Positions 37,655 through 42,122 of a stretch of DNA of 64,000 bases are shown here, one piece after another (the stretch's first letter is position 1; every line of letters starts with the position of its first letter). The position numbers were made by a program, and so were the translations under genes. Source of the DNA: Treponema sp. (GTDB lineage Bacteria > Spirochaetota > Spirochaetia > Treponematales > Treponemataceae). The notes under the pieces are model-generated. The model did no database searches, was not told the origin of the DNA, and saw only the letters and a list, made by a program, of their open reading frames with translations. The stretch covers positions 1 through 64,000 of the forward strand of contig JAEEYO010000072.1 in NCBI GenBank assembly GCA_016288205.1. The letters are read 5' to 3'.

Positions 37655-40475
37655 TCACTGGGACGGTGGGGCGTTTTCAAGCACGAGGGCCGGAACTATG
37701 CCCAAATTTTCATCGACACCTCTTCCACCGTTGTCTGCAGTACCAAACGTATCAACATATCTAACGCAGTTTGAGTAATAGCAGCTGGAACGTTGCCAAT
37801 AATAAGCCCCATATCCAGCATCCTTATTAACATGCTTACTGACAGACAATGCATAGTCGCTTGGCTCTCGTCCCCTATGACTTCCAGCGCCGCCAGCATG
37901 AGCGCTCGTGTTAAAATGATAATCGCCGATTGTAAGCTCTTTCATGCTCAAAAGGAAAATCTTTTCATTCGTTGGATTTTCAGCATAAGGATTTTTTCCG
38001 CTCTTCCACAAAGTTGGATCATTATATGGATTTGTACTTTCAGCATTATTTTCTACGCTTGTCGTGGCTATAAGATTTTGTGCGCTCGAAGTAAATGCCT
38101 TTTGCAAAAATCCTTTTCCAGAGTAGGTTTTTGCCTGTGGGTCGCCGCTTTCATATTTGCCGTTCAAGTATGCCCTCATCGTTGAGTATTTCCAGCTGTT
38201 GCCATCTATCGTAGAGACACCGATTGACCTTGTTGACTGAGAAAGATAAAATGGAATGCCTGCTTTTAAAACCTTGTCTGCAAACAAGAGAGTTTTTCCT
38301 GTTGAGTTGTAATTCGTTGTCAATGCACGCCAGTAAATTGGCTCAACCTTAAAATAATAGTCTTTGTTGTTAGTAACTGTTGTTCCGTTGGAAAATGTTT
38401 TTTTGTCAGAGGTATTATTTGCCGTCTGTTTTTCGTAAAAATATCCGTCACGTCCCAAATACCAGCCGTTATATACAGTGGTACTTGTGTACGCTGAAAT
38501 TCCTGAAACAGTCTGAGGGAAATCTCCGAACTTGTAGTGCTTGTCGCCAGAGTTGTCCCTTTCATGGTAGTTTTTATCATAAACGGGCTTCTGCGTGAGA
38601 GAGTCTTTTTTGGCAATGTAATAAGTGCCGGATAACACCGCGTTCTTTGAGATGTTACCCTCAGAATATGTTTGTGTAAAAGTCCAGTTGGAATCATATT
38701 GATCTCTTTTTGGAACGGTTGCAGTCAAGCTCTCCGTTTTTGAGGTTCCGTTCGAATAATACTTTTTGGTTGAAGTAATTCCGTAATCGGAGATTTTGTC
38801 TCCCACAAAGAAAATATTTTGGGCATGACTTGCGTTAGTTTTCGTAAAATCTAGAGTGCCTGTAAAAGTATATCCTGTAAGGAATGTCGGAATCGTCCTT
38901 TCAACCGAATTTCCCGCATAATCGGTAAATTTTACTTTCATATTATAAGTCTTGTCCGGCTGAATGTTCGTTATGTTTTTGGACAAAGTTCCGTTCGTTA
39001 TCGTTTCCGAGCTTGACGTGGAGCCGGTCACTATGATTTCAGATGTTTTCAAATCAACATAATCCGACCAGTTAAGAGTGTATGTCGTGCTGTTTTCGCT
39101 GCTGATTGTGGGTATGCTGATTTCAGGAGCCTTTGTGTCAACTGCAAAATAAAAATGGCTGCCCGAAGGATATATCAAGTGGTTGCCGCTCCTGTCCATG
39201 AAGTCAAAGACCACCTCGTAAACACCGTCGCCAAGGGAAACCTTCTCCTGCTCCAAATCCACGCTGCCCTCAAATACGGCAGTGTCCGATGTGACAGTCT
39301 GATAGTAAAGCGTAAAGCTTTTCTCATAAGTTGAAGCGGCGTAATTTACTCCGTATAATTTTTTTACTGTAACCGTGAAATACGAGTTGGGACCAGATCC
39401 TCCGTCCTGCTCCTGCACCTCTATGTTCAAGTCAAATTTAAAGTTTCCGTTCTTGATGAATTTCAAGGCCCCGAAATCACTTTTTTTCAGAGCGAAAGCG
39501 GCTGATTTTATAAAATTAGTATTGTCGCTTTTGAATTTCGCCGAAAACAACTCAGTGCTGCCTGATTTCGCAATTACAAGAGGCTTGTCATCGTTCCTGT
39601 TGTTCACCTGGTACATCCACATCTTGCTTCCGGCCATCTCCACCGGCTTTTCCTGCTCCGTGTAGAAAAATCCTTTTTCCACTTCGACCAGCACCTGAGT
39701 GAAGTCATCAAGTATGCGACCGGAATTTGTTTTTTTGTTTACAGAGATGGAAAGAGACCTCGGACTTTCGAATACAGGAGGGTTGAAACAGTCGTTGATG
39801 TTTTCTCCTGTTTTGTTGTTTATAAGCATTATGTTCTTGAAAAAAGTTTCCCCGTTTTTTTTGTAGCAGTAATATTTTTTCTCGCCGCCAATTACCTTAC
39901 AAAGAAAATCACTGTCGCTGAGTCTTTCCGAGACCTTAAGTTCTTTGCGTTCCTTTTCGCTGTAGTAAATGGAGTCGGGATCTATATCGCGGTTAAAGAG
40001 AATCTGAACGGTGGAGTCCTTGAGCATACCAAGAGAATTGGGTGTGTATGAGACAATCTGGGGCCTCGCGCTCACGATGCTCCTTACTCCGAGCTGCATC
40101 TCAGAACCGGGTTCCTTCAAAAGCTTGAATGATGTCTCGTCGCTCTTTGAGTCCGTAAACTCTATGTATCCGTCTGAGTCAAGGGATTCGCCGGTCATTA
40201 CGTTGAATACCTCCCAGCGGATGAATTCAAAATCGGTGTCGCTTTCAAAGGCGATGTTCATGCCCTGCGTGACTTTAATCGGATAAGAGCCCTTGGATGG
40301 CGAGAACTTACCCTTGGATCCATCAATCAGAATCGGAAAGGCAGGTGCATTTGCAAGGGCAATTTCATCCTCAATCTGCTGCTTGATTTTTTGTCCGTTC
40401 AGGAAATTCTCACAGGAAGTAAATATGCCCCCCTGTCAAAAGTATAGTAATTAATAGAATCTGTCCTTTCTTCAT
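37655..40475 (-). CDS. Large surface lipoprotein, frame broken at a G6 tract
   Basis: The main frame (to 40261 by ATG, but open further upstream) joins a lipoprotein signal only if one G is removed from the six-G run at 40428-40433: ATG at 40475 reads MKKGQILLITILLTG, then GIFTSC with a perfect lipobox. As given, translation from that ATG stops after 21 codons. The ~930-residue product has Ig-like beta repeats (YTLNWSDYVDLKTSEIIVTG) and a C-terminal domain like DUF6273 (YYWQRSS, GIVPALVLEN), typical of treponemal surface proteins. A GGAGT ribosome site precedes the ATG. Confidence 0.75.
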
Positions 40476-40580: not shown

Positions 40581-40624
40581 TGTTTTTCTGGAAAAATAGG
40601 TCAAAAATCTCAAATTTCCTGTCA

Positions 40625-40656
40625 TTGACAAAAAAAGTGTTATCTGATAGTATAAT
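40625..40656 (+). promoter_or_regulatory. Promoter of the tyrS leader
   Basis: -35 TTGACA (40625-40630) and a perfect TATAAT (40651-40656), spacing 20 nt; TAGTAT at 17 nt is an alternative -10. The TATAAT ends 6 nt before the leader-peptide ATG, giving a leaderless start. Confidence 0.55.
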
Positions 40657-40662
40657 TACACT

Positions 40663-40767
40663 ATGAAACACATTGTCCGTTGGGCGCAGAAAATCAATTC
40701 CTCTACGTTGGCTTACCTTTATTATGGCTATGATTTTCTCTCTGCTTTTACGGAAACGGCACGCTAG
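40663..40767 (+). CDS. Tyrosine-rich leader peptide for tyrS attenuation
   Basis: 34 codons ending in TAG at 40765-40767. It contains LAYLYYGYDF: four Tyr codons (40714-40716, 40720-40722, 40723-40725, 40729-40731) within six codons. Four tyrosines in a 34-residue leader placed before tyrosyl-tRNA synthetase is the pattern of a ribosome-sensed leader peptide. The start has no ribosome site and should be leaderless. The peptide itself need have no function. The frame is too short to be judged by codon use. Confidence 0.8.
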   Translation: MKHIVRWAQKINSSTLAYLYYGYDFLSAFTETAR

Positions 40768-40828
40768 TGTTTTTGTGTTTTACTGATTAAGTAATTACAA
40801 GGCTTTCCGTAAAGGAGGGCCTTTTTTT
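40745..40828 (+). promoter_or_regulatory. tyrS attenuator: antiterminator arm plus intrinsic terminator
   Basis: Terminator: AAGGCTTTCC (40799-40808), loop GTAAA, GGAGGGCCTT (40814-40823), seven Ts to 40828. Antiterminator: CTTTTACGGAAA (40745-40756, inside the leader frame) pairs over 12 bp with TTTCCGTAAAGG (40804-40815), which is half the terminator's 5' arm, its loop and the start of its 3' arm, so the two structures are mutually exclusive. A ribosome stalled at the Tyr codons leaves 40745-40756 free; one at the stop codon covers it. Confidence 0.8.
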
Positions 40829-40830
40829 AT

Positions 40831-40865
40831 GGGAACCTCTAAAAACTTCAGTTTTTTGAGATGCC
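40831..40865 (+). repeat. Hairpin repeat, CTCTAAAAAC family
   Basis: GGGAACCTCTAAAAACTT then CAGTTTTTTGAGATGCCC. The stem CTC-T-AAAAACT/AGTTTTT-T-GAG (40837-40860) has one T-T mismatch and a TC loop. It lies between the attenuator and the tyrS ribosome site. This is the best-formed of five such hairpins in the window. Confidence 0.55.
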
Positions 40866-40889
40866 CTTATTTTCAGGAGGATACACGCT

Positions 40890-42122
40890 ATGAGTTTATT
40901 TGAAGATTTGAAATGGCGCGGTCTTATCAAAGACGTTGCGGGTGAAGAGACAGATTTACAGAAGGTTCTGGATGGAACTCCATTCTCTTTCTATTGGGGA
41001 ACAGATCCCACGGCGGACTCACTTCACCTCGGTCACTACTCTTCCCTCTGCATGGCAAAACGTCTTGCAAATGCCGGACATCACCCGGTTCTTTTGTGCG
41101 GTGGAGCAACGGGACGCATCGGTGATCCGCGCCCCACGGCAGAACGTGAGATTATCAGTGAGGAAGCCGTAAACAAAAACATCGGTGGAATCCGCGAGCA
41201 GATTAAGCGCCTGGTTCCGACCGCAGAGCTTGTGGACAACTACGACTGGTGGAAGGACCGCTCATTTTTGGACACACTCCGCGACATCGGCAAATACATC
41301 AGCCTGAACTACATGCTCGACAAGGACATCATCCGCCGCCGCCTGGAAACAGGAATCACTTTCGCGGAATTCTCCTACATGCTTCTTCAGGGCTTTGATT
41401 TCGTACATCTTTTCCAGGAAAAAAAGTGCATAATGCAGGTGGCGGGAAGCGACCAGTGGGGAAACATCACAACCGGTGTCGATTTAATCCGCAAAATGTT
41501 GGACGGTCAGGCATACGCTTTTACCATGCCGCTGATTCTTGACGCAACAGGAAAGAAGTTCGGTAAGTCGGAAGGAAACGCGCTCTGGCTCGACAAGTCA
41601 AAAACATCACCATACGCAATCTACCAGTACCTCATCAACTCCGATGACTCCAAGGTTCTGGACTATCTTAAAGTCTTCACCTTCCTTTCAAAGGAACAGA
41701 TTGAGGAAATCTACGCACAGCAGCAGACGGCTCCCGAAACACGCATCGCACAGAAAACACTCGCATGGGAAGTCGTAAAGGACCTGCACGGAAAGGATGA
41801 GGCGGACAACGCGGTAATGATTTCCGAAAAGCTTTTCAAGGGCGAGTTCAAGGGGCTTTCGGTAAACGACATTCTCATGGGACTCAAGGGTGTTCCGAAT
41901 TTTGACTTCAAGGAGGAGCTTCCTTTGGTGGACGTTCTTGTGAACAACGGAATGGCAAGCTCAAAGCGTGAGGCAAGGGAATTCATAAAGAACAACGCAA
42001 TCTCCATCAACGGAGAGACCGTGAGCGATGAAACCAAGGTCATCACGAAGGACATGGCACTTGAAGGAAAGATTCTGATTTTCCGCCGTGGAAAAAAGAA
42101 GTACTTCATCGGTCTTGTGTAA
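40890..42122 (+). CDS. tyrS: Tyrosyl-tRNA synthetase
   Basis: 410 residues, class Ic. Charges tRNA-Tyr. The HIGH motif reads HLGH (46-49) and KMSKS reads KFGKS (223-227), the latter usual for bacterial TyrRS of the TyrZ-like group. GSDQWGNITTG is the tyrosine/tRNA pocket. A C-terminal S4 RNA-binding domain follows (about 345-410: LVNNGMASSKREAREFIKNN). AGGAGG lies 10 nt before the ATG. Expression is probably governed by the Tyr-codon attenuator just upstream. Confidence 0.96.
   Translation: MSLFEDLKWRGLIKDVAGEETDLQKVLDGTPFSFYWGTDPTADSLHLGHYSSLCMAKRLANAGHHPVLLCGGATGRIGDPRPTAEREIISEEAVNKNIGGIREQIKRLVPTAELVDNYDWWKDRSFLDTLRDIGKYISLNYMLDKDIIRRRLETGITFAEFSYMLLQGFDFVHLFQEKKCIMQVAGSDQWGNITTGVDLIRKMLDGQAYAFTMPLILDATGKKFGKSEGNALWLDKSKTSPYAIYQYLINSDDSKVLDYLKVFTFLSKEQIEEIYAQQQTAPETRIAQKTLAWEVVKDLHGKDEADNAVMISEKLFKGEFKGLSVNDILMGLKGVPNFDFKEELPLVDVLVNNGMASSKREAREFIKNNAISINGETVSDETKVITKDMALEGKILIFRRGKKKYFIGLV

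Follow-up and report, generated by a model that had tools for sequence, protein, structure and literature searches.

A tyrosine-codon leader before tyrS in Treponema and its relatives before aroF: comparative evidence for ribosome-mediated attenuation in Treponemataceae

The window analyzed here, a stretch of 64,000 nucleotides from a rumen-type Treponema, carries a short tyrosine-rich reading frame and a terminator immediately ahead of its tyrosyl-tRNA synthetase gene. This raises the question of whether the frame and the terminator together form a switch that sets tyrS transcription according to the charging of tRNA-Tyr. Leader-peptide attenuation is textbook knowledge in Proteobacteria. A survey of 2010 added the Firmicutes to a list of leader-peptide systems that had previously been known only from Proteobacteria and Actinobacteria (PMC2965389). 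We found no earlier report of a spirochete or Treponema leader-peptide element of this kind in the open-access literature; one paper with Spirochaetales data gives leader-to-gene distances and mentions neither tyrS nor Treponema (PMC4833913). The comparison described below strongly supports, at the level of sequence, aromatic-codon ribosome-mediated attenuation in the Treponemataceae, present at tyrS in one clade. For the window itself, we consider it very probable that transcription of tyrS is controlled by ribosome-mediated attenuation responsive to tRNA-Tyr charging.

The putatively regulated gene, at 40890..42122 of the plus strand, matches tyrosyl-tRNA synthetase (TIGR00234 363 bits, PF00579), is the only tyrS copy found in its genome and is preceded by a Shine–Dalgarno sequence, AGGAGG, at 40875..40880. 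Upstream of it, on the plus strand, the leader ORF, the terminator and the antiterminator arm lie where the original prediction had placed them. The 34-codon leader ORF (MKHIVRWAQKINSSTLAYLYYGYDFLSAFTETAR), a member of a conserved family, occupies 40663..40767 and holds four Tyr codons within six (40714-40716, 40720-40722, 40723-40725 and 40729-40731). The intrinsic terminator at 40799-40828 is the top-ranked site in the terminator scan, with 10 pairs and a loop of 5 over 40799-40823; its 5' arm, region 3, is 40799..40808, and region 4, 40814..40828, comprises the 3' arm (40814-40823) and the U tract (40822-40828). The antiterminator arm, region 2 (40745..40756, CTTTTACGGAAA), lies inside the leader ORF, 13 nt after the last Tyr codon, and can form 12 bp, including one G-U, with the terminator 5' arm and loop at 40804-40815 (TTTCCGTAAAGG), the final two bases of this partner segment already being part of the terminator 3' arm. 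Adjoining the terminator on its 5' side is a GTAATTAC box (40791..40798), of which the same or a related version recurs at most leader loci. At this place, tyrS and aroF leaders alike conserve a GGTAATTAC-like box, and a small hairpin between it and an upstream TTACT is possible within the antiterminator loop.

Several features of the family were absent from the original prediction, namely a near-leaderless geometry, a pairing between regions 1 and 2, and copies of the leader at aroF. At the window locus, region 1 (40676..40701) pairs with region 2 as a 1:2 hairpin (region 2 side ~40726-40754), and for this reason all three classical pairings, 1:2, 2:3 and 3:4, can be drawn there. Upstream lies a sigma-70-like promoter at 40625..40653 (10/12 in the promoter scan), with TTGACA at 40625-40630, a 17-nt spacer and an extended -10 element, TG..TAGTAT, at 40648-40653; an alternative -10, TATAAT, lies in the same region at 40651-40656. 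The predicted transcription start, ~40660-40663, is at or just before the leader AUG, and the promoter scan predicted no promoter between the terminator and tyrS.

In the mechanism we favor, RNA polymerase would start at or beside the leader AUG, and a ribosome would translate the leader. When Tyr-tRNA is scarce, the ribosome would stall on the Tyr codons and leave region 2 free to pair with newly made region 3, so that no terminator would form and tyrS would be transcribed. When Tyr-tRNA is ample, the ribosome would reach the stop codon and cover region 2, allowing the 3:4 terminator to form and to release an RNA of ~165-170 nt. Were the leader not translated at all, the 1:2 hairpin would form, and termination would again be favored. 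We infer the start site, the translation, the stalling and the direction of the response from the layout of the sequence.

In the window RNA, the predicted folding energy of the complete leader is 4.6 sd lower than that of dinucleotide shuffles, the 1:2 pairing reaches -21.8 kcal/mol (0/200 shuffles as good), and the 2:3 duplex taken alone has a shuffle p of ~0.017. Before arm 4 is synthesized, the predicted fold contains the 2:3 antiterminator. Once arm 4 is present, the terminator is the predicted minimum-energy state even if region 2 is free. This speaks against the attenuation model unless the antiterminator is kinetically trapped.

How widespread is this arrangement? tyrS was found in 181/196 genomes of the genus Treponema, and the upstream regions of 89 tyrS genes were fetched and read in the correct orientation. 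A leader of the same family precedes 19 of these 89. In an alignment of the first 19 tyrS leaders, R6, A8, Q9, I11, S14, L16, A17, Y18 and Y20 are invariant. The original prediction had proposed a comparison of the upstream regions of other Treponema tyrS genes, and in this comparison, wherever the leader is present the Tyr codons, the complementarity and the terminator are present with it, with covariation. The attenuator reading thus gained from conservation, covariation and gene-matched codons, but its extension to Treponema tyrS in general did not hold, and we reject the leader as a general feature of tyrS in the genus: most of the upstream regions read have none. Since most tyrS genes of the genus do without it, control by the leader is dispensable. 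In three loci (L020, L026 and L035), a similar terminator lies between infA and tyrS with no leader ORF, a state that could have arisen by loss of the sensor alone; L035 also has a ATAATTAC box.

A search with the peptide returned copies at other loci, and the genome of the window itself proved to have two. After identical loci were merged, 69 distinct leaders remained, of which 66 are complete: 31 precede a tyrS of the window type, 7 a second type of tyrS and 27 the DAHP synthase gene aroF, and 1 lies at a contig end. Wherever the downstream gene is readable, the peptide with the RWAQKIN motif never occurs away from tyrS or aroF. The second tyrS type (TIGR00234 414 bits) is ~40% identical to the window tyrS; the loci concerned are L159, L160, L163, L164, L167, L175 and L186. 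Because two such divergent tyrS genes carry the leader, leader and gene seem able to assort separately. The aroF genes were identified by PF00793 and PF18152 and by the NCBIfam 3-deoxy-7-phosphoheptulonate synthase model. The copy in the window's own genome (L154, G000:C60:120035-123600; match at G000:C60:120535) has the leader MKNTKLVRWTQKINFSSLAYFYFGFYWFSCPVRRSLHSV, with its ORF starting at 501 in the locus, a terminator and, downstream, a DAHP synthase gene at 736-1770. Judged by eye, the ORF that follows the DAHP synthase gene in many genomes begins in a way that resembles prephenate dehydrogenase.

The peptide family is present in 2/20 genera of Treponemataceae, and named carriers include strains of Treponema bryantii. 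A phylum sample of 393 genomes contained no convincing member beyond the Treponemataceae; two weak peptide matches outside the family (E ~2e-4) were discarded, neither having the anatomy of a leader. Weak matches within the genus were mostly due to chance, two of them (L218 and L221) being divergent aroF leaders. A quick look through the window genome found no leader of the same kind at pheS or at its sole chorismate-binding gene.

The RNA parts are kept throughout the collection. In 66/66 complete loci, a terminator lies 25-57 nt 3' of the leader stop, and its 5' arm and loop can pair with a stretch of RNA that is part of the leader or close to it. The 1:2 pairing is more restricted, with p<0.05 in 24/31 leaders before window-type tyrS, 0/7 before the second tyrS and 7/27 before aroF. 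Shuffling each locus separately gave p<0.05 for the 2:3 duplex in 36/66 loci; this test is too weak and was therefore replaced by anchored covariation and re-pairing tests. For the former, the 66 loci were anchored on an invariant GGA in region 2 and TTCC in region 3, so that pairing itself was not used for alignment. The 2:3 helix then appears as an 8-bp core at positions -3 to +4, with pairing ending sharply at -4 and +5. Positions -3, -2, -1 and +4 pair above permuted partners (p 0.0005-0.0025, values that are inflated by kinship among the leader sequences). Position -2, for example, shows G-C, G-U and A-U pairs, and position +4 shows G-C and A-U. In leaders before window-type tyrS, the core starts a median of 17 nt past the last Tyr codon and stops 8 nt before the stop codon, where a ribosome stalled at Tyr codons would expose it and one at the stop would cover it, although the distance from the last Tyr codon to region 2 varies from locus to locus between 2 and 27 nt.

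The codons follow the gene. Averaged over 12 codons, leaders before window-type tyrS have 3.2 Tyr, 1.1 Phe and 0.1 Trp and those before the second tyrS 3.1 Tyr, 0.6 Phe and 0.6 Trp, whereas those before aroF have 3.4 Tyr, 3.2 Phe and 0.6 Trp; the aromatic run of the own-genome aroF leader reads AYFYFGFYWFS. Among the 31 homologues at window-type tyrS, Tyr stands at the first three sensor positions in 30, 29+2 and 23. Such a match is what one would expect if the switch read the amino acids relevant to its gene, and at aroF the same device would use Tyr, Phe and often Trp codons. The change to Phe, Tyr and Trp codons at aroF lends independent support to attenuation, beyond what the original prediction contained.

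A set of loci chosen independently of the leader points the same way. We took 40 further aroF upstream regions (L268-L307) from across the Treponemataceae, selected by an aroF protein search rather than by the leader model, and applied a detector that requires a short ORF opening with ATG, >=5 aromatic codons within a stretch of 12 and a terminator close downstream. It was positive in 26/40, several of them in other genera of the family, and in 0/2000 shuffled sequences. On tyrS upstream regions without a family leader it gave 0/69, as a strict detector that passes 9/19 known tyrS leaders. The 26 aroF leaders differ widely in their peptides (for example, MKNITYAYYYYWYSHKACRVLAK) and in their helices (for example, CAGAGTTCT/GGAACTCTG and ACGCAGGGT/ACCCTGCGT). 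Their own pairs average -15.1 kcal/mol versus a mean of -11.2 (sd 0.55) for re-pairings among the 26 loci, of which the best in n=5000 reached -13.1. Kinship among loci inflates a test of this kind as well, but complementarity that persists while the sequence diverges is what selection on pairing usually leaves behind. An aroF attenuator looks like a trait of the family, with the tyrS leader as its offshoot.

The promoter arrangement of the window recurs as well. A promoter-like site with a -10 box ending 6-10 nt before the leader ATG is found at 49/69 leaders, including all 27 before aroF; shuffled 60-nt upstream stretches have a match anywhere in 13%. Most of the remaining tyrS leaders sit behind infA. 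In the independent aroF set, such a site is present in 20/26, and 18 of these end 6-9 nt before the ATG. With a start 6-8 nt past the -10 box, the AUG would be at, or within a few nucleotides of, the RNA 5' end, and leader ORFs that have their own promoter are thus probably leaderless, the start being a predicted one.

Does the peptide matter beyond its aromatic codons? The first half of the leader was taken as the 13 aligned codons that end at the second conserved Tyr. For leaders before window-type tyrS, its pN/pS is 0.16 versus 0.88 in the codons that follow, and before aroF 0.41 versus 0.61. Codon-periodic, synonymous-biased substitution of this kind argues for translation of the leader ORF and for a role of its first half as a peptide. 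Attenuation might accordingly be assisted by the nascent chain, the RWAQKINSS-LAY half acting in the exit tunnel to hold the ribosome at aromatic codons, with sensing dependent on both the peptide and the codons. This would refine rather than replace the main explanation, and the low first-half pN/pS and the R, A, Q, I, S, L, A and Y that are invariant in the first 19 tyrS leaders speak for it. However, the other aroF leaders of Treponemataceae keep the codons and the RNA switch and lack an RWAQKIN-type motif, and the motif is therefore not needed for the basic switch; moreover, region 1 pairing and recent common descent may explain part of the first-half conservation. On balance, we regard a contribution of the nascent chain as possible and rather doubtful. 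The same grade applies to the fuller picture of a leaderless spirochete attenuator family that moves between aromatic genes, has its codons retuned and is read by both codon and nascent chain, a proposal that we put forward only tentatively.

Constraint on the first half at the amino acid level could also mean that the leader encodes a small protein acting in trans, its conservation reflecting that function, and there is precedent in peTrpL of Sinorhizobium meliloti (PMC7298713). This seems quite unlikely, as the second half is unconstrained as a peptide, other leaders of Treponemataceae lack the motif, it is never found away from tyrS or aroF where the gene is readable, and the covarying terminator and antiterminator would be left unexplained. 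Less likely still is that an ordinary intrinsic terminator serves to insulate tyrS or to reduce its level with no sensing, the ORF and the pairing being incidental. The three infA–tyrS terminators that persist without a leader would suit such a role, but a conserved Tyr-rich ORF, gene-matched codons and a covarying antiterminator in many divergent loci would not. Finally, a T-box, the RNA that controls tyrS in Firmicutes by binding tRNA directly and so shares both gene and signal (tRNA-Tyr charging) with our case, or another tRNA- or metabolite-binding riboswitch, is scarcely credible here, as a conserved and apparently translated ORF takes up the leader RNA, and a T-box had no Rfam match at the gathering threshold anywhere in the window, nor any up to E=1 within 40600-40900.

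Ribosome-mediated attenuation, the reading we prefer, places the Treponema leader beside several known systems. Like the enterobacterial attenuators of trp, his and pheST, it has a short ORF with cognate codons, alternative antiterminator and terminator structures, and a terminator just before the gene, and with pheST it would share the regulation of a synthetase gene. It differs from them in pairing tyrosine with tyrS, in its spirochete host, in its probably 5'-terminal leader start and in the constrained first half of its peptide. The work of Canestrari (2020) reportedly concerns mycobacterial leaderless polycysteine short ORFs that respond to the amino acid and lie before an operon; they resemble the Treponema leader, itself probably leaderless, and differ in the use of cysteine. 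Rfam comparison relates the sequence of the Treponema leader to no known leader family: no competing element was matched at 40600-40900 to gathering thresholds, and Phe_leader (RF01859) reached 20.7 bits versus a gathering cut-off of 55 (E 0.31) and was rejected.

The S. meliloti trpL attenuator RNA has been measured to begin at the leader ORF AUG; there, Trp codons precede trpE(G) and the peptide also acts in trans (PMC7298713), whereas the leaderless start in Treponema is predicted. Two predicted motifs are also comparable. uORFC-13-1, a leader ORF and terminator before aroF (DAHP synthase) in Acholeplasma, is set apart by its description, with proposed Phe sensing, a ribosome-binding site and another phylum (PMC8632094). 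uORFC-8-2, a Cys-codon leader before cysS in Rhodobacterales, is likewise a codon-sensing leader before the cognate synthetase, for cysteine and in alphaproteobacteria (PMC8632094).

With respect to origin, aroF attenuators span several genera of Treponemataceae, and only two genera have the RWAQKIN version and its attachment to tyrS. On the most economical account, in which we infer the direction of copying, tyrS acquired a copy of an aroF attenuator that was then retuned to Tyr. As judged by comparison, this is the first spirochete case that we have found, with tyrosine codons at tyrS and codons for all aromatics at aroF, and it would extend classic leader-peptide attenuation to spirochetes. 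One leader family on both a synthetase and a biosynthetic enzyme, with its codons retuned and with two divergent tyrS genes among its carriers, makes the evolution of a codon-sensing switch directly traceable. The probable 5'-terminal AUG poses the question of whether a leaderless start can couple ribosome and polymerase tightly enough for attenuation. The model further predicts that Treponema carrying the leader adjust both tyrosyl-tRNA synthetase and aromatic synthesis to tRNA charging.

On the other side of the promoter, the divergent neighbor at 37655-40475 of the minus strand is an 868-aa ORF with a DUF6273 domain. Its apparent lipoprotein signal sequence (from 40475) is out of frame at a run of six G, and the cause may be phase variation, a genuine disruption of the gene or a sequencing error.
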